Both the position numbers and the translations under genes were made by a program. From positions 1 to 22,133 of the IMG/VR virus record IMGVR_UViG_3300043470_001195: 22,133 nucleotides of DNA; one strand, written 5' to 3'. The stretch's first letter is position 1. Every line of letters starts with the position of its first letter. Positions 805 to 12,317 of this stretch are shown here, in pieces. The DNA comes from a virus. The notes beneath the pieces were generated by a model. That model ran no database searches. It saw nothing but the letters and a program-made list of their open reading frames with translations, and had not been told where the DNA came from.

Positions 805-2855
805 GCCGAGCTCCATCCGAAACCCTGCGGGCCGTGTTGGCGGCGATCACTTCGGGGCTGTCGCCGTTGCAGGCGGTGGTGCCGCAGACGCTGAGCAAGT
901 GGGCTGAAGAAAACTTCTTCCTGTCGGCTGAGTCCAGCCACACGCAGGGGCGGTGGCAGGCTTACCCGTTCCAGCGGGGGTGGATGGATGCTTTCAGCAA
1001 CGATGACATCGAAGAGGTGACGGTGCGCAAGGCCAAGCGGGTGGGGTACACCAAGACCCTGCTGGCCTTCATTGCTTACAACGCCGTGCACCGCCGCCGC
1101 AAGCAGGCGCTGTGGCAGCCGACCGACGATGACCGTGACAGCTTTGTGAAGTCTGAGGTCGACCCGATGTTGCGCGATGTGGACGCGATCAAGCCGGTGC
1201 TGTTGACGGGCAAAGAAGACACCATGAAGCTCAAGTCGTTCTTGGGCTCGGTGCTGCACATCTTGGGCGGCAAGGCGGCGCGGGCTTACCGGCGCATCAC
1301 GGTGGCCGTGGCCATGCTGGACGAAGCCGATGGCTTTGACCAAAAGATCGAGAAATCGTCGGACCCTGTCACCTTGGCACGTGGGCGCTTGGAGGGCGCA
1401 CCTTTTCCGAAGTTGATCGTTGGCAGCACGCCTCGGGTCAAAGGCTTGAGCCATGTGGAATACCGCGAAGAGCATGCCGACGCCCGCATGAGTTATTACA
1501 TCATCTGCCCGCATTGCGATGTGGAGCACCCTCTGCTGTGGGGTGGGGCCAAGGTTGACTATGGTTTCAAGTGGGATGGTTCAGACTGCACGACTGTGCG
1601 CCATGTGTGCCCGCATTGCCGGGGCACCATCACGCAGGCCGACTACCTGAAGATTTGGGATAAGGGGCTGGATGTCAGCGCCTGTGGTGACTACCGGTAT
1701 GGCCACGACGGCGTATGGCGCAACGCCTACGGCGAAAAGCGCAAAGCGCCTCGCCATGTTGCCTACCATCCGTGGACGGCCTACAGCCCCCAGCGCGAAT
1801 GGTCCGACATCGTGCGCGAATTTTTGGAGGCCAGCACCAAAGCCAAGGCAGGCGAGACAGGCCCGCTGGAAGGCTTCGTCAACGAAACTCTGGGCGAGTG
1901 CTGGGAAGAAACGCTGGAAAAAGCCGACGAAAACGCACTGGCCCTGCGTGCCGAAAGTTACAAACGCTTTACCGTGCCCTATGGCGGGCTGGTGTTGGTC
2001 ACCGGGTGCGACGTGCAAGACAACCGCTTCGAGCTGGTGACCTGGGCCATTGGCAAGGGTGAGGAAATGTGGGCGGTCGACTACACCGTCATCCCCGCCA
2101 ACCCAGCCGACGAACGCGAATGGGACAAGCTCGACACCTACCGCGAGACGGTTTTCAGCCACGCCAACGGGCGCGGCATGAAGATCGAAGCCATGGCCGT
2201 GGACACGGGCGGACACTTCACGCACCAGGCGTACAACTACTGCCGCAACCGCGAACGCATGCGCGTGTTTGCCGTGCGCGGTGACCCGCAGCCTTCCAAA
2301 ATGGTCAAGGGCAAAGCCACCACTCAGGATGTGAACTGGCGCGGCCAAGTGCTCAAGCGCGGCGTGCGCCTGTGGTACGTGGGCACCGACACCGCCAAAG
2401 ACCTGGTTTATGGCCGCTTGATGGTCACCCAGCCCGGCGCGGGTTACGTGCACTTCAGCAAAGACCTGCCAATCGAGTTCTACACCCAGCTCACCGCCGA
2501 AAGCCGCGTGCCGCAAAAGACCAGCCGGGGCATCGAATACAAGTGGGTCAACACCAAACGCGCCCGCAACGAAGTGCTGGACTGCACCGTCTACGCCATC
2601 TTTTGCACCCACGCGCTGGGCCTGCACGCCTACACCAGCGCCATGTGGGAAAAGCTGGAAGACGCCGTGCAACCAAAAAGCGGTGATTTGTTTGCATTCG
2701 ACGTCAAAAATAATGACACAAATACACAGACAACAGATAAATTCACACCTCCCGATGCCGCCGCCGACCTGCAAGCCGCCGCCGCCCAGGCCCAACAAAA
2801 CCGCCCCCTCATGCGCCGCCCATCGCGCCAACCAGGAAACGCCCGAACATGGTGA
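801..2855 (+). CDS. terL: Terminase large subunit, lambda gpA family (GpA/TerL)
   Basis: This 684-residue protein is the ATP-driven DNA packaging motor and cos nuclease (lambda gpA has 641 residues). The Walker A-like motif KAKRVGYT is at residues 77-84, almost the same place and form as lambda KSARVGYS. Walker B VAMLDE is at 170-175, and GSTPRVKG follows at about 208. A CxxC pair at 236/239 and another at 270/273 form a zinc-ribbon-like insertion. The RNase H-fold nuclease acidic residues appear as Asp404 (TGCDVQ), Asp468 (AVDTGG) and Asp594 (VLDCTVYA). The C-terminal tail after about residue 630 is variable and briefly AT-rich (about 2690-2750). It overlaps terS by 4 bases and the next gene by 7. 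Confidence 0.95.
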   Translation: MSRAPSETLRAVLAAITSGLSPLQAVVPQTLSKWAEENFFLSAESSHTQGRWQAYPFQRGWMDAFSNDDIEEVTVRKAKRVGYTKTLLAFIAYNAVHRRRKQALWQPTDDDRDSFVKSEVDPMLRDVDAIKPVLLTGKEDTMKLKSFLGSVLHILGGKAARAYRRITVAVAMLDEADGFDQKIEKSSDPVTLARGRLEGAPFPKLIVGSTPRVKGLSHVEYREEHADARMSYYIICPHCDVEHPLLWGGAKVDYGFKWDGSDCTTVRHVCPHCRGTITQADYLKIWDKGLDVSACGDYRYGHDGVWRNAYGEKRKAPRHVAYHPWTAYSPQREWSDIVREFLEASTKAKAGETGPLEGFVNETLGECWEETLEKADENALALRAESYKRFTVPYGGLVLVTGCDVQDNRFELVTWAIGKGEEMWAVDYTVIPANPADEREWDKLDTYRETVFSHANGRGMKIEAMAVDTGGHFTHQAYNYCRNRERMRVFAVRGDPQPSKMVKGKATTQDVNWRGQVLKRGVRLWYVGTDTAKDLVYGRLMVTQPGAGYVHFSKDLPIEFYTQLTAESRVPQKTSRGIEYKWVNTKRARNEVLDCTVYAIFCTHALGLHAYTSAMWEKLEDAVQPKSGDLFAFDVKNNDTNTQTTDKFTPPDAAADLQAAAAQAQQNRPLMRRPSRQPGNARTW

Positions 2856-3280
2856 AAAAAGCCACCGCCACGCCCGCCAATGTTCCCGAAGCGCTTTTCG
2901 GGAACATCGAACAGCCAGCCGACCATTTGCCTGACGCCAAGAAAATGGTCACCTCCGCATTTGTGGCCGCGCCCGATGACCTGATTGACGATGTGCTGGA
3001 CGCCGTGCTGCAGTTGGCCCCCGCCTTTTGCGCCGCCCTGGTGGAGCACCGCGACCAGTTGCAGGCGCTGGCCCATAAAATCAGCGAGCAAAAGCATCGG
3101 GAATACGCAGGCGACCGGGTTTACATCCCCAGCACCACCGAAAGCGCGCGGCGCGAACGCGGCAGCCGAAACGCCGCCATTCTGCGAGACCACCAAGCGG
3201 GCGAACGCATGATGCTGCTTGAGCGCCGCTATGGACTGCACCGCAACACTCTTTGGAAAATCATCAACAGCAAGGGGTGA
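2849..3280 (+). CDS. Mor-family (Mu middle-operon activator-like) transcription regulator
   Basis: This is a 143-residue protein. The C-terminal half matches the layout of phage Mu Mor and C-type activators: a short beta segment AGDRVYIPS (87-95), a basic linker (RRERGSRNAAILRD, 101-114), then a helix-turn-helix with LERRYGLHRNTLWKII (124-139). The preceding helix (VLDAVLQLAPAFCAALVEHR, 49-68) corresponds to the dimerisation part. Mor activates middle promoters by binding a dyad and contacting RNA polymerase. The start overlaps terL by 7 bases. Its place between terminase and portal genes is unusual, since Mu keeps mor in a separate middle region. Two dyad repeats lie downstream (3930-3962 and 10357-10389). 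Family assignment is fairly firm; targets are inferred. Confidence 0.75.
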   Translation: MVKKATATPANVPEALFGNIEQPADHLPDAKKMVTSAFVAAPDDLIDDVLDAVLQLAPAFCAALVEHRDQLQALAHKISEQKHREYAGDRVYIPSTTESARRERGSRNAAILRDHQAGERMMLLERRYGLHRNTLWKIINSKG

Positions 3281-3795: not shown

Positions 3796-3878
3796 GATGG
3801 TGTAGCTCAGCTGGTAGAGCCTGGGGCCGCAGCGGCGGTGTCACAAAGACGGCGCGGGTTCGAGTCCCGCCACCATCA
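3796..3878 (+). tRNA. tRNA-like element with a non-canonical anticodon arm
   Basis: Three tRNA arms are clear. The acceptor stem GATGGTG (3796-3802) pairs perfectly with CACCATC (3871-3877). The D arm is GCTC-AGCTGGTA-GAGC (3805-3820). The T arm is GCGGG-TTCGAGT-CCCGC (3854-3870), with a consensus T loop. Between the D and T arms are 33 bases (3821-3853) instead of about 22. I tried each 5-7-5 placement and none forms a proper anticodon stem with T33. The segment instead holds a tight GCCG-CAG-CGGC hairpin (3826-3836) and a possible long variable arm, GTC-ACAAA-GAC (3840-3850). No CCA is encoded after discriminator A3878. It may be a degenerate tRNA, a tRNA mimic or a class II-like tRNA with an odd fold, so I assign no amino acid. 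Confidence 0.55.
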
Positions 3879-3882
3879 ACCC

Positions 3883-3920
3883 AAAACCCCCGCATCGAAA
3901 GATTGCGGGGGTTTTTCTTT
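3883..3920 (+). terminator. Strong rho-independent terminator
   Basis: The left arm AAAACCCCCGCATC (3883-3896) pairs with GATTGCGGGGGTTTT (3901-3915). The stem has 14 pairs with one bulged T at 3904 and a GAAA tetraloop (3897-3900), followed by a T-rich tail. The A-run on the left arm would also give a U-run on the opposite strand, so it could act in both directions. It starts 5 bases after the tRNA-like element. It should stop transcription coming from the terminase genes before the portal block. Confidence 0.85.
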
Positions 3921-3929
3921 GGGCTGGGC

Positions 3930-3962
3930 GAAGCGTTTACCGTTTTGCTTAACAAGTAAACA
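3930..3962 (+). repeat. 33-bp direct repeat copy 1, with internal dyad (candidate operator/promoter element)
   Basis: This copy matches 10357-10389 with one mismatch (C at 3934, T at 10361). The core 27 bp (3935-3961) has ends GTTTAC and GTAAAC in inverted orientation separated by 15 bases, with a nested TTG-CTTAA-CAA. It lies just after the terminator and 41 bases before the GTG start at 4003. It is far more AT-rich than its surroundings. No convincing sigma-70 -35/-10 pair is visible. An activator- or repressor-binding site is inferred from symmetry, repetition and position. Confidence 0.75.
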
Positions 3963-4002
3963 TGAGCGCGGTGACATTCGGTGCAAACCACACCAAACCA
4001 CC

Positions 4003-4569
4003 GTGACCACCACCCCCACCACCGAACCCCTCCGCATCATCGCGGGCGACACCGCCAAGTGGCTCAAAACGCTGGCCGACTACCCCGCCAGCGCGGGCTG
4101 GGCGCTGGTCTACACGCTGATCAACGCCACGGCCAAGATCACCATCACGGCCACCGCGCAGGGCGATGACCACCTGGCCACCGCCAGCGCAGCCACCACC
4201 GGCGCGTGGGCGGCGGGCACCTACACCTGGCGGGCGCAGGTCAGCAAGGCGGGCGATGTCTACACCGTGGGCACTGGCCAGATCGTGGTCGAGCCATCGT
4301 TCAGCGTGGCCACCCTCGACAGCCGCACCCCCAGCAAAGTGATGCTCGACGCCGTTGAGGCCGTCATGCTCAAGACCGCCACCAGCAACGTGCAGGAATA
4401 CGAAATCGCTGGCCGCCGCCTCAAGCACTACAGCATGGGCGAGCTGCTGCAACTGCGCGACCGCCTCAAAGGCGAAGTGGCCCGCGAGCAAGCCATCGCC
4501 GCCGCCGCCAACGCCGCCCCTGGCACGGTCGGCGCACCAGGCCGCATTTACGTGAGATTTGGCCGATGA
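4003..4569 (+). CDS. gpW-like head-tail connector with N-terminal beta domain
   Basis: This 188-residue protein lies between the terminase block and the portal gene, the place of lambda gpW, a small head-completion protein that binds the portal. The N-terminal half (residues about 8-105) is Thr/Ala rich and looks like an immunoglobulin-like beta domain (LRIIAGDTAKW, ALVYTLIN, GTYTWRAQV). The C-terminal half has the helical layout expected of gpW: IAGRRLKHYSMGELLQLRDR followed by a charged helix and the ending RIYVRFGR. I chose GTG 4003, because the longer frame from 3838 would translate the tRNA-like element and the terminator. No strong ribosome binding site is seen. The stop overlaps the portal start (ATGA, 4566-4569). 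gpW kinship is an inference from position and C-terminal pattern. Confidence 0.65.
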   Translation: MTTTPTTEPLRIIAGDTAKWLKTLADYPASAGWALVYTLINATAKITITATAQGDDHLATASAATTGAWAAGTYTWRAQVSKAGDVYTVGTGQIVVEPSFSVATLDSRTPSKVMLDAVEAVMLKTATSNVQEYEIAGRRLKHYSMGELLQLRDRLKGEVAREQAIAAAANAAPGTVGAPGRIYVRFGR

Positions 4570-6494
4570 ACCAACCCAACATTTTCCGCCGCGCCGCCGC
4601 ATGGGTCACCGGCAACACCCCGGCCAAGGGCAACCAAGTGCGCCGCTTTGAAGCCGCCCGCCTGGACCGCATGACCAGCGAGTGGTTTGCCACGGCCAAC
4701 AGCATCAACCAAGAGCTTTACAGCGACCTGGACCTGCTGCGCCGCCGTGGTCGCCAGCTGGTGCAAAACAACGACTACGCCGCCAAGTTCAAGCGCATGG
4801 TCGAAGACAACGTGGTCGGCCCCGTGGGCGTGCGCCTGCAAGCGCGGGTGGAAGATTCCCCCGGCAAGCCCGACCGCCTGGCCAACGCCGCCATCGAGCA
4901 AGCCTGGGCCGAATGGGGCCAAGCGTGTGACGTGACGGGCCAGCTGAGCTTTGCAGACCTGTGCACCCACATCATGGGCAGCCTGCCCAGCGATGGCGAG
5001 TTTCTGGTGCGCATTGTCAAAGGCGCAGACGCGGGCAACCGCTTCAACTTTGCGCTGCAGGTCATCGATGTGGACCGCATCGACACCACTTTCAACGGCA
5101 CCAGCGGAGAAAACACCGTCATCATGGGCGTGGAGGTCAACCAGTACCGCCGCCCCGTGGCCGTGCACCTGTTTGAGGCGCACCCATCCGACGGCGCACG
5201 CAGCAGCCGCCGCCGCATTCGCGTGGCCGCAGACGAAATGCTGCACCGGTTCAAAGTCACCCGCGCCGAGCAAGTGCGCGGCATCCCGTGGATGGCCCCC
5301 GGCATGCTCAGCCTGCACCACCTGGGCGGCTTCATGCTGTCGGCGCTGCTGGCCGCTGAGCACGGGGCCAACCACTACGGATTTTTCACCACGCCAGACG
5401 GCATGGCCCCCATCGGGCAGGCCGACAACGGCCAGCAAGTCACCGCCAGCCAGCCCGGCATCTACGACACATTGCCCCAGGGCGTGCAGTTCACCCCGCA
5501 CGACAGCAAATACCCCAACGAGGTGTTTGGCCCCTTTGCCAAGACCTGCCTGCAGCGCATCGCCACCGGCTGGGGCGTGGCCTACCACTCGCTGGCCAAC
5601 GACCTGGAAGGCGTCAGCTTTTCCAGCATCCGCTCGGGCACGCTGGAAGAGCGCGACCGCTGGACGCACGACCAAGAATGGTTCATCGGCTGCTTTATTG
5701 AGCCGGTCTACAAACAATGGCTGCAAATGGCCCTGTTGTCGGGCGCCATCGTCATGCCCAACGGCTCGGCCCTGCCCGCCAGCAAAGCCGCCAAGTTTGC
5801 CCGCCACGAATGGCAAGCCCGCCGCTGGGAATGGGTGGACCCACAAAGCGACATGAACGCCAAAGTGTTGGCCGTCAAAGCGGGCCTCATGGCCCCGCAA
5901 GACCTGTGCGCCAGCATGGGCTACGACTACGAAGACACCATCAAAGCCATCGGCCAAGCGCAAGAGTTGGCCAAAGAGTTTGGCGTGCAGCTGACCGCCT
6001 ACGAAGGCGCACCCGGCGCACAAACCGCCGCCAACGCAGGGGCCCAGCCCACCCAGCCCAACGGTGGCCGCAGCCACCAGGGCACCGATCAGCCCAGCCA
6101 CAGCGCAGTAACCAACGACCAGGCGCACCGCCAACACACCGAACTGATGGCTGTGATCGCTGGGCTGAACAACCGCCAAACCACCGTGCAACTGTCTACC
6201 GCCGACATCGAGGCCCAAATGCGCGGCCTCACCGACGCCATGACCGCGCACATCAAAGAGGTCGCCACCGAAATGCCCATCGTCGTCAACGTGCCCCAGC
6301 AAGCCGCCCCCGTGGTCAACGTGGCCGCCCCCGTGGTCAACGTCACCGCGCCCGCCGTCAACTTCGAGGCCAACATGCCGCCCGCCCAAGTGGTCGTGCA
6401 GCACCCCACCCGCGCCGTGCAAACCGTCAAGCGCGACGCGAATGACGAAATCGTCAACACCACCACCGAATACACCATCGAAACGCGGGACTGA
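4566..6494 (+). CDS. Portal protein, lambda gpB family
   Basis: This 642-residue protein forms the dodecameric ring through which DNA enters and leaves the capsid. Residues about 20-470 show the lambda-portal pattern, with segments such as NDYAAKFKRMVEDNVVGPVG, SDGEFLVRIV, VIDVDRIDTTF, RGIPWMAPGML and NDLEGVSFSSIRSGTLEERD. Lambda gpB has 533 residues; the extra length is a C-terminal extension after about residue 475. It is first polar and Gln/Thr rich, then a short repeat APVVNVAAPVVNVTAP (from residue 580), then TTTEYTIETRD. The start overlaps the gpW-like gene by 4 bases. The gene is followed after 5 bases by a putative hydrolase rather than the scaffold/protease genes seen in lambda. Confidence 0.93.
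   Translation: MNQPNIFRRAAAWVTGNTPAKGNQVRRFEAARLDRMTSEWFATANSINQELYSDLDLLRRRGRQLVQNNDYAAKFKRMVEDNVVGPVGVRLQARVEDSPGKPDRLANAAIEQAWAEWGQACDVTGQLSFADLCTHIMGSLPSDGEFLVRIVKGADAGNRFNFALQVIDVDRIDTTFNGTSGENTVIMGVEVNQYRRPVAVHLFEAHPSDGARSSRRRIRVAADEMLHRFKVTRAEQVRGIPWMAPGMLSLHHLGGFMLSALLAAEHGANHYGFFTTPDGMAPIGQADNGQQVTASQPGIYDTLPQGVQFTPHDSKYPNEVFGPFAKTCLQRIATGWGVAYHSLANDLEGVSFSSIRSGTLEERDRWTHDQEWFIGCFIEPVYKQWLQMALLSGAIVMPNGSALPASKAAKFARHEWQARRWEWVDPQSDMNAKVLAVKAGLMAPQDLCASMGYDYEDTIKAIGQAQELAKEFGVQLTAYEGAPGAQTAANAGAQPTQPNGGRSHQGTDQPSHSAVTNDQAHRQHTELMAVIAGLNNRQTTVQLSTADIEAQMRGLTDAMTAHIKEVATEMPIVVNVPQQAAPVVNVAAPVVNVTAPAVNFEANMPPAQVVVQHPTRAVQTVKRDANDEIVNTTTEYTIETRD
6303..6343 (+). repeat. Tandem 21-base repeat inside the portal C-terminal extension
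   Basis: The 20-base unit GCCGCCCCCGTGGTCAACGT occurs at 6303-6322 and again at 6324-6343. It encodes the repeated heptad-like block APVVNVA. A third, degenerate unit follows (GCGCCCGCCGTCAACTTC). The period of 7 codons keeps the frame, so copy number could change without breaking the portal. Confidence 0.8.
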
Positions 6495-6499
6495 AAGCC

Positions 6500-6961
6500 A
6501 TGATTTATCTCGCCAGCTACAAAGGCACCCAGCCAGGCTTGGCTGGATTGGTCAACCGGGCCATCCGCTTTTTCACCAAAAGCCAATACAGCCACACCGA
6601 GATCTGCCTGGGCGACCCGTTCGCGGGCCCGGTGGACTGCCTGAGCAGCGCCCACCACGAAGGCGGTGTGCGCGTCAAACACATGCAGCTGAGCCCCGCC
6701 AAATGGGACGTGATCGCGCTGCCCCATGTGAGCGAAGGCGCTTACCTGCACTTTCTGGCCGACCACAAAGGCCAGCCGTATGACTTCATCGGCTGCGCCA
6801 GATCGGTGCTGCCATTTGTACGGGGCGAACACCCCCGCAAATGGTTCTGCAGCGAAGTCAGCGCCGCCATCATCGGCCACGCCGAACCATGGCGCATGCA
6901 CCCCGGCGTGCTGCACATGGTCACCAGCCAACAAACATCAATGCAAGGGAACACAGCATGA
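6500..6961 (+). CDS. Permuted NlpC/P60-like (YiiX/papain-like) hydrolase
   Basis: This 153-residue protein shows the order of a circularly permuted NlpC/P60 fold, with the catalytic His early and the Cys late. His32 lies in QYSHTEICLG and Cys117 in KWFCSEV, with GQPYDFIG (91-98) before the Cys as is usual in this family. Such enzymes hydrolyse amide or ester bonds, for example in peptidoglycan peptides or lipids. No signal peptide or membrane segment is seen. It lies between portal and fibre-like genes and ends in an ATGA overlap with the next gene (6958-6961). It may be a virion-associated peptidase or an accessory function. The catalytic call is fairly strong and the substrate is unknown. 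Confidence 0.7.
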   Translation: MIYLASYKGTQPGLAGLVNRAIRFFTKSQYSHTEICLGDPFAGPVDCLSSAHHEGGVRVKHMQLSPAKWDVIALPHVSEGAYLHFLADHKGQPYDFIGCARSVLPFVRGEHPRKWFCSEVSAAIIGHAEPWRMHPGVLHMVTSQQTSMQGNTA

Positions 6962-7260: not shown

Positions 7261-10143
7261 ATGACGTTTGCACGAACAGCAGCAGTCGCAGGGGCTGGCA
7301 CGGTTTCCTGCACTGGCACGACAACCGTCACAGGGACAGGCACATCGTTTGCAACATTAACAGGCGCAGCAGCTGGTCCTACCCAAGCCCGTGTTGGCGG
7401 CACGATTACCGTGGGTGGCGTAACCAAGACAATTACGGCTATTGCTTCGGCAACCTCGCTAACCACTGATACGGCTTTTGGTACGTTTTCAGCGCAAGCG
7501 TTTACGGTTCAGACAGGCATCACGCAAACTGGCACAGATACGGTGAACCTAAATTTAGGTTCTGCTGCTGGCTTTACGATTACCAACCGTGCTGACCTTT
7601 ATCGCATATTTGATTGCCAAGGGAATGACTTATCTATCAATGGCACTTTAACTGTTGATACGACGATTGCACAATTGCGAAACGATGGAAGTTGCAACAA
7701 TACTTTTGTTGTAAATGGTTCTGTAAATGGCGGGGAAATTATTTTTAATGGTCGTAAAGCAGCAGCCGCAAACGCGCCTTTCCCGTATCCCGGCTTTGAT
7801 TGGTTAGGTACAAATGGATTAAAAATCCTATACTTAACAGGTACTGATGCTTATCCCGGTAAATTTAGATTAAGAGATGCTTGCGTTCGATTTGGCGCAG
7901 ATTGGCTCACTACTTATTCAATACATCGTTCTGTAATTTCGACAGAAGGTTCTAATTGCTGGATTTTATGTGCAAAGGGAACAGGTACGGGGCAACCTCG
8001 TATTAGACAGGACAATTTACAGGCCTCGATTAATTTTCAAGCAACAAAAACGTGGGTTGGTGTTTGGATGAATTTTGGGGTGGCTCAAACTTCATTGGCA
8101 GGTTATACACCAATTGACACCGACGGCCCTGAAATTAATGCTTCTATTATTTCAGTTTCCCCACGCATTCAAATACCCAATTATGATACGACTTATGTGA
8201 AAGCCGCTTATTATGTAGGTTCGCAAATTACACTGTATGGTGGTGGTTGGGTAAATCTTAAGGGTAATTTAAAAGGCACTAATATTGTTTGGTATAGTCA
8301 ATCCGTCAGTGGGGGTACATATAACGTCATTGAGTATTCTAAACAAATAAAAGCAATTTCAAAAGATGCTTTAGGTAATGTTTTAAATGATGGCTATCTC
8401 TACTTTCAACCTGTAGGCTCAAACGTTTCAGGGATTAGAGCAAGAGGAGCTACTTCGGACATTACGTTTAATTTATCACAGAAAAACATTTTAGTTAGTG
8501 GTGGATTTGCTGAAACTGAATTTATTTACGCTTGGGATTATGCAAATACAAATGGTTTAAAAAGCACGCCAAAATTTTTCTGTAGCGGACAAACTTTAGG
8601 AGCAGAAACACATCCAGCTTTTTTAAGTAGATACGGCTACGACAAGCAGCCTATTACACTTACTTTGAGCGGAAACAATACTTTTGAAGTCTCAGCAAGC
8701 CACGCCTCACTGCCAACGACCGACAAAGTGATCGCCAACGCAGCGGCCATCACGGGCGTGACGTTCAACTTCACCACCAAGACCTGGACAAACGCGCTTG
8801 GCTCCACGCGCACCGTTCAGGAAATTTACGACGCGTATCAGTACCAACTGAACCAAACGGCCAACCTGCAACAGCCCGACGACTGCGTGGTGACTGGCAG
8901 CCTGCGCAACTGGGTAGGCTGGACCGGCGTGAACAACGGCACGATCACGGCGGGCGCAGCTGGCCTGCAGCTGGGCTCCAACACCGTCACCAACAACGGC
9001 ACCATCACGGCCCTGTATTTTTCAGGCGGGCAATCGTCCTCCATCCTCACGCTCAAAAACGTCACCGCTGCAGGCGTGGCAGGCGTGTGGCACCCCACCA
9101 CCACAGCCACCGAGCTTTTCCAGACCAACAACACCGCATCGGCCACCGATTACACGCTGTACTACCCACCTGGCTCGGTCGGCCTGGTCAAAAACTACGC
9201 CCGCGAGCTGTACGGCTCGCAGCGCGTGGCAGGCAGCATCACGCTGGCCGCTGGCCTCAACACCGTCAGCTTTGTGGATGTTCCCGATGTGGGCATCACC
9301 CAGCCCGTGCAGGCCACCGTGGCCGCGTACACCGCCATTGGGGGGCCATCCAAGCGTTATGACCGCACGGCGGTGTTCCGGCTCAGCGAACAGGGCATCA
9401 AGCTGGGCCAGATTGCCACCCGAAGCGGCACCAGCATCGAGGGCACTTTCAGCGTGAAGGTGCGCGACGATGCGCCTGCCGTGTATTCGGTGCTGGGCAA
9501 CGTCATCACGATCAAGGCCGCCAGCTACGACGCCGATGCCAAGTTCATCAAAGAGATCGTGACGGGTGGCGGCACCTTCACCGCGTTTGACACCGAGCTG
9601 ATCGGCATCGATGTGGAAGACGCCAACGGCGACAGCTCTGTCAACGTGCAGGGCACCGTGGGCGGCTTGGTGGACGTGTGGAAGTGCGTGAACGGCACCA
9701 TCAACGCCGACTACGCCACCGGCACCAAGATCGCCAGCAACATCAGCGCGGGCAAGTTCCGCTTCACGGGCACCGATGGCTTCAAGCTGATCTTCTACGA
9801 CAAGAGCAGCCTGCTGGCCCGCGATTGCAGCATGAGCAAGGGCAACTATGTGCTGGGCTGGTATGTGTACGACCAAGCCACGGGCGGCCTGACGCAAAGC
9901 CAAAACAGCGACTTTGCCACCATGGTGAGCAAGGTGAGCGACATTTTTGCAGACGTGAACAGCGTGACCAACGGCTTTGTGGAAGCCACCGACAGCCTGC
10001 ACGCGCTGCGGGTGGCGGTGGACACCAAGCCCACGCTGGCCGAGATTGCAGCCACCACGCTGGACGCCAACATCAAGTACGTCAACAACGTGCTGGTGGA
10101 CGGCACAGGCGCAGAGGGTAGCGAGTGGGGGCCTGCAGCATGA
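7261..10143 (+). CDS. Large fibre-like structural protein with AT-rich central module
   Basis: This 960-residue protein begins at ATG 7261, with GGAG about 10 bases upstream. The N-terminal part (about residues 5-80) is Gly/Thr/Ser rich, with the pattern TTTVTGTGTSFATL...VGGTITVGGVTKTITAI seen in virion-attachment domains of phage fibres. Residues about 95-475 are Asn/Tyr/Ile rich beta sequence, consistent with a beta-helix or other receptor-binding module. Their DNA (about 7545-8690) is strikingly AT-rich. From about residue 480 the DNA returns to GC-rich codons and the protein to Gly/Thr-rich beta sequence, with repeated NNGTITA segments at about 558 and 578. The C-terminal 60 residues are helical (LHALRVAVDTKPTLAEIAATTLDANIKYVNNVLV). 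Lying between portal and capsid genes, it could be a head or tail fibre; I cannot decide which. Confidence 0.7.
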   Translation: MTFARTAAVAGAGTVSCTGTTTVTGTGTSFATLTGAAAGPTQARVGGTITVGGVTKTITAIASATSLTTDTAFGTFSAQAFTVQTGITQTGTDTVNLNLGSAAGFTITNRADLYRIFDCQGNDLSINGTLTVDTTIAQLRNDGSCNNTFVVNGSVNGGEIIFNGRKAAAANAPFPYPGFDWLGTNGLKILYLTGTDAYPGKFRLRDACVRFGADWLTTYSIHRSVISTEGSNCWILCAKGTGTGQPRIRQDNLQASINFQATKTWVGVWMNFGVAQTSLAGYTPIDTDGPEINASIISVSPRIQIPNYDTTYVKAAYYVGSQITLYGGGWVNLKGNLKGTNIVWYSQSVSGGTYNVIEYSKQIKAISKDALGNVLNDGYLYFQPVGSNVSGIRARGATSDITFNLSQKNILVSGGFAETEFIYAWDYANTNGLKSTPKFFCSGQTLGAETHPAFLSRYGYDKQPITLTLSGNNTFEVSASHASLPTTDKVIANAAAITGVTFNFTTKTWTNALGSTRTVQEIYDAYQYQLNQTANLQQPDDCVVTGSLRNWVGWTGVNNGTITAGAAGLQLGSNTVTNNGTITALYFSGGQSSSILTLKNVTAAGVAGVWHPTTTATELFQTNNTASATDYTLYYPPGSVGLVKNYARELYGSQRVAGSITLAAGLNTVSFVDVPDVGITQPVQATVAAYTAIGGPSKRYDRTAVFRLSEQGIKLGQIATRSGTSIEGTFSVKVRDDAPAVYSVLGNVITIKAASYDADAKFIKEIVTGGGTFTAFDTELIGIDVEDANGDSSVNVQGTVGGLVDVWKCVNGTINADYATGTKIASNISAGKFRFTGTDGFKLIFYDKSSLLARDCSMSKGNYVLGWYVYDQATGGLTQSQNSDFATMVSKVSDIFADVNSVTNGFVEATDSLHALRVAVDTKPTLAEIAATTLDANIKYVNNVLVDGTGAEGSEWGPAA

Positions 10144-10358
10144 GCCGCACCAGCAGCTGGGCCAAAAGCTGGGCCAACAGCTGGAAGGCCACCTGGGGCA
10201 AGGTGAGCGAAGACGCCCCAGCCGCTGGCGGCGTCAAGCACAAACGCCGCCGCCCATTGCGCATCGGTGCGCCCTGGGTGTGGATGCCGCCACCTGCGCC
10301 GCTGCGCCGCAACCGCCGCCGCCGCGAGGCCGAGCTGCTTTGCTTCATGCGCCCGTGA
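10140..10358 (+). CDS. Small basic protein with S/T-W-x-x repeat (72 aa)
   Basis: ATG 10140 overlaps the fibre stop (ATGA, 10140-10143); an alternative start at 10125 would add five residues. The 72-residue product begins MSRTSSWAKSWANSWKATWGKV, with Trp at residues 7, 11, 15 and 19, each preceded by Ser or Thr: a four-residue period. The rest is very basic and Pro-rich (KHKRRRPLR, PPPAPLRRNRRRRE). Short proteins with SWG-type repeats are seen beside fibre genes in other phages. No function is known to me. Its stop codon touches the second copy of the 33-bp repeat. Confidence 0.55.
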   Translation: MSRTSSWAKSWANSWKATWGKVSEDAPAAGGVKHKRRRPLRIGAPWVWMPPPAPLRRNRRRREAELLCFMRP

Positions 10359-10389
10359 AGTGTTTACCGTTTTGCTTAACAAGTAAACA
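10357..10389 (+). repeat. 33-bp direct repeat copy 2, with internal dyad (candidate operator/promoter element)
   Basis: This copy matches 3930-3962 with one mismatch. Its 27-bp core (10362-10388) has the same GTTTAC/GTAAAC inverted ends. It lies 36 bases before the ATG of the protease/capsid gene, nearly the same distance as copy 1 to its gene. A TTTAAT hexamer at about 10399-10404 could be a -10 element. There is no clear -35, which would fit an activator-dependent promoter. The role is inferred. Confidence 0.75.
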
Positions 10390-10424
10390 CGCCACCGAAT
10401 TTAATCCACGCAAAGGCCACACAC

Positions 10425-12317
10425 ATGACCACTGCCACACACCTGAGCGCCGAGCGAATCGGCCAGATCAACCAAGACAAGCGCAGCGTGCGCGGCTTGG
10501 TGGTCGAACGCGCCGCCATTGACGAAACCGCCCGCACCGCCACCTTGGCCTTTGCCAGTGAGCAGCCTTATGAACGGTGGTGGGGAATCGAGATTTTGGA
10601 CTGCACCCCCAGCGCCATGGACACCAGCCGCCTGCGCTCGGGTGCCAACCTGTTATGCGACCACGACACACGCGATGTCGTGGGCGTCATCGAATCTGTC
10701 GAAATCGGCCCCGACCGGGTAGGTCGTGCCGTGGTGCGCTTTGGCAAAAGCGTTCGCGCAGAGGAAGTGTGGCAAGACGTGCGTGACGGCATCCGCCGCA
10801 ACGTGTCTGTCGGCTACATGATCAACGAGGCATTACTCGAGAGCACAAAGGATGGTGTGGAAACCTACCGCGTGACCTCTTGGACGCCTTACGAAGTTTC
10901 GCTGGTCTCCGTGCCAGCTGACGCCAGCGTTGGCGTGGGCCGAAGCCAAGAGCCCGACACAGCAGCCCCCGCTGCCGTGACCATGGCCACTTTGCCCGAG
11001 CCCGTGCCTGCCCAGCGCACCAAAGTTACCCCCTCCATCAAACCATTCAAAGGCACCAAAATGACTGATTCCGTCATCGAAGTCGTCGACCAGCGTAACC
11101 ACGCCGCCGACATCACCAAAATCGCAGCTTCCATCCCCGGTGGTGCTGACCTGGCCATGAAATCCATCCAGGCTGGCCACACTGTCGAGCAGTTCCAAGC
11201 CGAAGCCCTGCGCGTCATGAGCACCAAGCCCATCGACACCGCTGACATCGGCATGAGCAAGCGCGAAGTCAAGCAATACAGCTTGATGCGTGCCCTTAAC
11301 GCCCTGAGCAACCCCGGCGACCAAGCCGCCCAACGCGCCGCCGCTTTCGAGCGCGAGTGCTCCGAAGAGCAAGCCAAAGTGCTGGGCAAGTCGGCCCGTG
11401 GCCTGTTTGTGCCCAACGAAGTGCAAAAGCGCGACCTGCTGGTCGGCACGCCCACAGCCGGTGGCAACACCGTGGCCACAGACCTGTTGTCTGGCAGCTT
11501 CATCGACATCTTGCGCAACGCCATGGTCATCAACCGCATGGGCGCTCGCATGATGACGGGCTTGGTCGGTCAAGTCGCCATCCCCAAGCACACTGGCAGC
11601 GCCACGGCTTATTGGGTGGCAGAAAACGCCGCGCCTACCGAGTCGCAGCAGTCGTTCGGCCAAGTCACCATGACACCCAAGACCGTGGGCGCATGGACCG
11701 ACATTTCCCGCCGCCTGTTGCTGCAAAGCTCCATCGCGGTCGAGAGCTTGGTGCAAACCGACCTGGCCACCGTGTTGGGCTTGGCCATCCAGCAAGCCGC
11801 CATCAACGGCTCTGGCGCGTCTAACCAGCCAAGCGGCCTGATGACTCTGTTGACCACACCTGCAGTGGTGGGCGGCACCAACGGCGCTGCGCCCACATGG
11901 GCCAACGTGATCGCCTTGGAAACTGCCATCGCATCGGCCAACGCCGACGTGGGCACTCTGGGTTATCTGACCAACGCCAAGGTGCGCGGCAAGCTCAAGT
12001 CGACCGAAAAGTTCAGCACCACCAACGGCCAGCCGATCTTCGAAGCAGGCAACACACCGCTGAACGGTTACCAAACCGCCATCACCAACGCCGTTCCATC
12101 CAACATCACCAAAGGCACAGGCAACAACCTGTCGGCCATGTTGTTCGGCAACTGGGCTGATTTGATGATCGGCATGTGGGGCAGCCTGGACCTGATGGTG
12201 GACCCTTACACCGGCTCCACCGCTGGCACCGTGCGTGTCGTGGCCTTGCAAGACGTCGATGTGGCCGTGCGCAACCTCGAATCGTTCGCATCGTTCGTGG
12301 ACATCGTCACCGCCTGA
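10425..12317 (+). CDS. HK97-type prohead protease fused to major capsid protein
   Basis: This 630-residue protein joins two functions. Residues about 20-180 form an HK97-family prohead protease with likely catalytic His80 (LLCDHD), Ser128 (RNVSVGY) and acidic Glu157 (PYEVSLVSVPAD). Residues about 213-330 form a helical, charged scaffold-like delta region. From about 330 on is the HK97-fold capsid subunit (GNTVATDLLSGSFIDILRN, IPKHTGSATAYWVAENAAPTES, WTDISRRLLLQSS, ending VRNLESFASFVDIVTA). The protease matures the shell by cutting off the delta region. An in-frame ATG at 11061 (residue 213), after AAAGG, could also start a separate capsid chain. It is preceded by repeat copy 2. There is no lambda-type C/Nu3/D/E set, so the head is a mosaic. 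Confidence 0.93.
   Translation: MTTATHLSAERIGQINQDKRSVRGLVVERAAIDETARTATLAFASEQPYERWWGIEILDCTPSAMDTSRLRSGANLLCDHDTRDVVGVIESVEIGPDRVGRAVVRFGKSVRAEEVWQDVRDGIRRNVSVGYMINEALLESTKDGVETYRVTSWTPYEVSLVSVPADASVGVGRSQEPDTAAPAAVTMATLPEPVPAQRTKVTPSIKPFKGTKMTDSVIEVVDQRNHAADITKIAASIPGGADLAMKSIQAGHTVEQFQAEALRVMSTKPIDTADIGMSKREVKQYSLMRALNALSNPGDQAAQRAAAFERECSEEQAKVLGKSARGLFVPNEVQKRDLLVGTPTAGGNTVATDLLSGSFIDILRNAMVINRMGARMMTGLVGQVAIPKHTGSATAYWVAENAAPTESQQSFGQVTMTPKTVGAWTDISRRLLLQSSIAVESLVQTDLATVLGLAIQQAAINGSGASNQPSGLMTLLTTPAVVGGTNGAAPTWANVIALETAIASANADVGTLGYLTNAKVRGKLKSTEKFSTTNGQPIFEAGNTPLNGYQTAITNAVPSNITKGTGNNLSAMLFGNWADLMIGMWGSLDLMVDPYTGSTAGTVRVVALQDVDVAVRNLESFASFVDIVTA

Follow-up and report, generated by a model that had tools for sequence, protein, structure and literature searches.

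The window analyzed here, that is, the whole stretch of DNA under study, corresponds to a virus record 22,133 bases long, and the features described below lie on its plus strand. The gene of the terminase large subunit of the GpA family (801–2855) is followed by an ORF (2849–3280) encoding a 143-amino-acid transcription activator of the Mor/C family (Pfam PF08765; PHROG late transcriptional activator), which is the predicted binder of two copies of a repeat. Copy 1 (3930–3962) precedes the genes of a gpW-like head-tail joining protein (4003–4569; PHROG 5774, E = 6.6e-40) and the lambda-family portal protein (4566–6494; Pfam PF05136, E = 2.6e-88), and copy 2 (10357–10389) precedes the gene of a prohead protease fused to the major capsid protein (10425–12317; Pfam PF04586 and PF05065). 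The head and packaging set is composed of a GpA terminase, a lambda-family portal, and an HK97-type capsid with an S78 protease; the head and packaging genes that characterize Mu-like transposable phages were not found in the window. Between the activator gene and copy 1 sit a tRNA-Leu(cag) (3796–3878, within a feature spanning 3796–3917) and, after it, a terminator-like hairpin, read by eye at about 3885–3917, which would shield copy 1 from upstream transcription. An Rfam search of the window returned the tRNA only. In a close relative (L010), a hairpin is present at the corresponding place, but the tRNA region reads differently. The portal–capsid interval, inside the block bounded by the two copies, also holds an ORF of 960 amino acids (7261–10143), which had no match in Pfam or PHROG and the downstream half of which differs in another relative (L003).

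The two 33-bp copies, which are kept in relatives as the predicted activator sites of a gpW-portal promoter and a protease-capsid promoter, respectively, differ by one base, and their 27-bp dyad cores (3935–3961 and 10362–10388) are identical. The two copies, their one-base difference, and the 27-bp core had been described in the first-pass annotation, which was also correct with respect to the inverted outer arms of the core, GTTTAC and GTAAAC, and the spacing to the next start codons, which is 41 bases to the start at 4003 and 36 bases to that at 10425. Its by-eye reading that the window lacks a third copy was borne out by a search for the 27-bp core with up to three mismatches; none appeared in 100 shuffles, either, and a chance repeat is ruled out by this result and the identity of the cores. 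The TTG/CAA element that it had described as nested is, however, not a nested dyad, because it is centered on core base 16 and the outer dyad on base 14, so that the two are not coaxial; in relatives, the middle of the core is an asymmetric conserved motif, approximately TTGCCTT. Its statement that the flanks share nothing was nearly right, except that a −10-like hexamer lies 12–17 bases past the dyad at both copies.

An exact 27-mer scan of viral contigs gave matches in two near-identical strains only, and protein-anchored searches were therefore used, in which relatives were collected via the portal and capsid proteins and by a portal profile search of bacterial genomes. The comparison set consisted of 84 loci (32 non-redundant) from phages and prophages of Burkholderiales, and, within each genome, the stretch before the gpW-portal genes was aligned to that before the capsid gene. 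In these same intergenic regions of the relatives, a dyad of 27–28 bp was found before gpW-portal and before protease-capsid, and most loci holding both places had a near-identical direct-repeat pair, the sequence of which differed by phage group. The arms were, for example, GTTCAC...GTGAAC (L010), GTCAAC...GTTGAC (L007), GTAAAC...GTTTAC (L011), GTCCGG...CCGGAC (L018), GTCTTG...CAAGAC (L089), and GTGACA...TGTCA (Variovorax). The usual form of the element is GTNNNN-N4-TTGCCTT-N5-NNNNAC, with a length of 28 bp (27 bp in the window clade), and elements in a few relatives (L014, L021/L027/L029, L023, and L043) are atypical or asymmetric. Two copies of a genome's own element were present in 18 of the 20 genomes scanned whole; one genome (G012) has three, the third of which precedes a gene resembling a tape measure gene, and in another (G023) the ungapped whole-genome scan gave one copy, the second being missed because it is shorter by one base. 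Among the 32 non-redundant genomes, the arms agreed between both copies of one genome at a mean of 11.94 of 12 bases and between genomes at 6.33 of 12, the observed within-genome total being reached in none of 10,000 permutations. The arm base pairs (n = 384) were Watson–Crick in 356 cases, G-U in 4, and other in 24. The isolated-phage collection contained no DNA match to the window and no close Mor. In one relative with GTGACA arms (G024; L186/L187), overlapping GTGTCAC-type repeats were observed on the minus strand at approximately 6624–6672 of the portal-oriented contig.

A sigma70-like −10 hexamer occupies positions +12 to +17 past the dyad at one fixed distance, and the predicted hexamers of the window are GACATT for copy 1 (3973–3978) and TTTAAT for copy 2 (10400–10405). 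When the sites were located without using the −10, T was found at +17 in 98% of cases at both copies and, in the non-redundant set of 32 genomes, in 62 of 64 sites, against a background of 12.5% for T. A scan for the consensus sigma70 pair of −35 and −10 hexamers gave no promoter match at either window copy. Thus, as in Mu-type Mor/C promoters, a −10 is present, a −35 is absent, and the activator dyad lies just upstream. Assigning the T at +17 to position −7 places the dyad at about −51 to −24, with its center at about −37.5. The first in-frame capsid start codon lies 6 or 7 nt past the T of the −10 in 30 of the 32 genomes, and capsid mRNA is therefore predicted from the sequence to be leaderless in these 30. 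The two exceptions are the window and L082, with distances of 19 and 20 nt, respectively, and AAAGG ahead of the start. Half of the gpW starts are located within 10 nt of the −10.

The ORF at 2849–3280 is a member of the Mor/C family and the likely trans factor for both sites. Clustering of the ORFs of 21 genomes placed one small protein family in all 21 between the large terminase gene and gpW. The window member matched Pfam Mor with an E-value of 4.8e-7 and 30.2 bits, above the curated cut-off of 24.9, and also matched PHROG late transcriptional activators; all 52 relatives compared matched Pfam Mor (E ≤ 0.01). Profile comparison by hhalign gave values of 94.3 for Mu Mor and 85.6 for C, which supports homology. 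A phmmer search of the PDB with the single Mor found nothing, a profile search of the PDB found Mu Mor and C, and a Mor structure was only poorly recovered by Foldseek when the monomer model served as the query. In the PDB entries 9l0x (C), 9l0y (Mor), and 9vw8 (C), four activator chains are listed each, which hints that the active form may exceed a single dimer. The AlphaFold2 model indicated with high confidence a C-terminal HTH with helices at residues 121–128 and 132–141, the second being the recognition helix (codons 3242–3271). With respect to location, the mor stop codon and the beginning of copy 1 are often separated by just a few nt in relatives; two small ORFs intervene in the window clade, and, in Variovorax prophages, the gap is mostly 0.7–2.5 kb.

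The recognition helix covaries with the arms, and the covarying residues (132–137) fall in the second HTH helix of the AlphaFold2 model. With helix positions numbered on LSERQVLRI, GTGAC arms go with R4 Q/H5 R8, GTGAA arms mostly with R4 R5 Q8, GTCCG arms with S/T4 R5 W7 E8, GTCTTG arms with P/S4 R5 W7 H8, GTCAAG arms with Q4 R5 H7 Q8, and the arms of the window clade (GTTTAC, GTTCAC, GTCAAC, and GTAAAC) with N/T/Q/M4 T/A5 W7 K8. A partial Mantel test of arm against helix distance that controlled for the rest of the protein gave an r of 0.633, which none of 5,000 permutations reached (largest, 0.181), and the corresponding value for arm against the rest of the protein, given the helix, was 0.056. 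These permutation counts are not exact probabilities because the rows share ancestry, and tests on sister pairs and on prediction between distant relatives were therefore added. When the comparison was confined to pairs with 75% identity or more outside the helix, helix type and arm were both shared in 116 pairs and both different in four, and one pair each differed in the arm only and in the helix only. Prediction of the arm from the helix of relatives with less than 70% identity elsewhere was correct for 3.31 of 4 bases, compared with 2.43 of 4 when the remainder of the protein was used and 1.29 of 4 at random. Taken together, the recognition helix tracks the arms and the rest of the protein does not; this covariation is an observation, as are the sites, the fixed −10, and the activator gene.

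We therefore consider, at a probability of roughly 90%, that each copy is a site for the Mor/C-family activator encoded at 2849–3280, which, with the downstream −10, would form an activator-dependent late promoter of the sigma70 type. The gpW-portal block would be driven by one promoter and the protease-capsid block by the other. In this arrangement, the outer arms of the dyad would be read by the HTH domains of the activator, RNA polymerase or a different portion of the activator may contact the conserved asymmetric middle (approximately TTGCCTT), and the activator would substitute for the missing −35. Specificity would shift quickly between phages, with both sites and the helix shifting together. 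It is from the comparisons that we infer binding, activation, subunit arrangement, timing, and transcript starts. The first-pass proposal, a conserved regulatory element in control of the portal and capsid blocks, is supported comparatively by the constant position, the fixed −10, the presence of about two copies per genome, and the covariation with the recognition helix, and the activator, the promoter layout, and the diversification between genomes are added to it.

Arms that are the same within a genome and diversified between genomes, along with a coevolving regulator helix, are also the known pattern of immunity systems, and the sites might accordingly be operators of an immunity-type repressor, as in stoperators, with a specificity that diversifies between phages. 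This is very unlikely, considering that the covarying protein belongs to Mor, an activator family, that the sites lie upstream of a −10 without a −35, and that there are only two copies, placed at structural operons. The inverted arms and their compensatory changes, such as that from GTTTAC/GTAAAC to GTTCAC/GTGAAC, could instead suggest RNA hairpins in 5′ leaders that control the translation or processing of both messages. The predicted start is, however, downstream of the dyad, so that transcripts from the associated promoter would lack it, and the arms covary with a protein helix. Moreover, base pairing by itself would not call for the same arm sequence in both copies, as is observed, and G-U accounts for few of the pairs (4 of 384); the hairpin reading was rejected on these last two grounds and has only a minimal probability. 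Recombination or mobile repeats for the exchange of portal cassettes between phages, as might be suggested by direct repeats bounding a block that varies between about 2.1 and 7.7 kb, are hardly credible in view of the fixed spacing to the −10 and the capsid start, the fixed positions, and the helix covariation, none of which would be expected of linkers. Exchange through the repeats may still occur as a side effect.

The distribution in whole bacterial genomes was evaluated with the GTGACA version, which was present in five Variovorax of eight bacterial genomes, four of them holding only one pair, approximately 2.16 kb apart. A search of 61 genomes of the genus of the Variovorax gossypii host matched five, and the reversed control matched none. 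A regulatory role in phages, as proposed in the first-pass annotation, would be at odds with many copies at random or non-phage places; none such were found in these genomes, where every copy lay in a prophage, a prophage remnant, or an integrative island. Likewise, each isolated single copy that was examined belonged to a prophage, a prophage remnant, or an alpA island. The remnant (L211, 4587–7281; G034:C9) is a decayed prophage with terminase and gpW fragments, in which the Mor site with its −10 is intact. Three Variovorax genomes have islands with integrase and alpA genes in which GTGACA-type sites precede genes matching Pfam AlpA, namely, that of Variovorax gossypii (L210, 6559–6590 and 7876–7903; G034), G069 (L225/L227), and G108 (L226). 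A −10-like GATCCT lies at the same offset as in the phage sites, with an ATG 6–7 nt later, and, in the main island site, the loops differ, with the arms and GCCTT kept. It is possible that the alpA islands are satellites reading the late activator of their helper, and, as they carry the same site, −10 spacing, and ATG, the Mor of the helper would on this reading switch the island on. A rather doubtful extension, which we offer tentatively, is that such satellites exert a diversifying pressure on the specificity of the late promoters across this phage family; if this were true, the coordinated change of helix and half-sites would represent an arms race over late-gene control.

A literature search, with most subscription journals lying outside it, found no description of this site, and the long-dyad variant, the family-wide helix–arm code, the prediction of leaderless capsid messages, and the island sites are new here. 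They describe a late regulon in phages that are not Mu-like, for which about two sites are needed and in which the most abundant virion protein is predicted to come from a leaderless message. The matching of about twenty arm types to residues of the recognition helix constitutes an ordered natural data set for the DNA-recognition code of the Mor/C family and a natural record of how an activator protein and its switches change partners. It also poses an evolutionary question, namely, how one helix and four half-sites come to change in concert among phages with about 95% identity in the portal and capsid proteins.

Among known systems, mycobacteriophage stoperators are many asymmetric repressor sites that are the same within a genome and diversified between genomes along with the regulator. 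The present sites are similar in their within-genome identity and in their diversification together with a regulator, but they are long dyads tied to a −10, with arms in inverted orientation and a Mor-family protein, and the scans of whole contigs gave two copies per genome (three in G012) rather than many. The late promoters of P2 Ogr and P4 Delta involve a small phage activator and an upstream dyad, TGT-N12-ACA, near −55, and satellites there use the activator of the helper. The likeness extends to the small activator, the dyad upstream of late promoters, and satellites depending on a helper's activator, whereas the protein family is unrelated. The closest comparison is with phage Mu, in which the gene order is mor then Pm and C then Plys. 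C, an activator of this family, turns on the late genes by way of dyads (PMC4287176), and its promoters (Plys, PI, PP, and Pmom) resemble those described here in these respects and in that Plys comes directly after the C gene; the differences are that Mu has four such promoters as compared with two here, that the site length is another, and that the portal and capsid blocks each own a site here. The Mor site in Mu is a 16-bp dyad with 5-bp arms centered at −43.5, where Mor replaces the −35 (PMC4390567). Pm (PMC4390567, PMC4287176) shares with our predicted promoters a Mor-family activator, a −10 that lacks a −35 and is preceded by a dyad, an upstream dyad edge at about −51, and a target promoter directly after the activator gene, and N133, T134, and K137 of the window helix correspond to N, T, and K of Mor at the aligned places. 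The promoters here differ from it in their 28-bp dyad (27 bp in the window) with 6-bp arms about 22 bp apart and a center at about −37.5, in the conserved asymmetric middle, in the lambda-type head genes and GpA terminase, and in the predicted leaderless or near-leaderless starts. The 16-bp dyad of the Mu type, with 5-bp arms and a center at −43.5, was not what we found, and, because a dyad of 27–28 bp lies near −37.5 instead, the binding geometry is not the known one of the family. The promoters would work like the Mor/C promoters of Mu, with a site length and center that are not of the Mu type.
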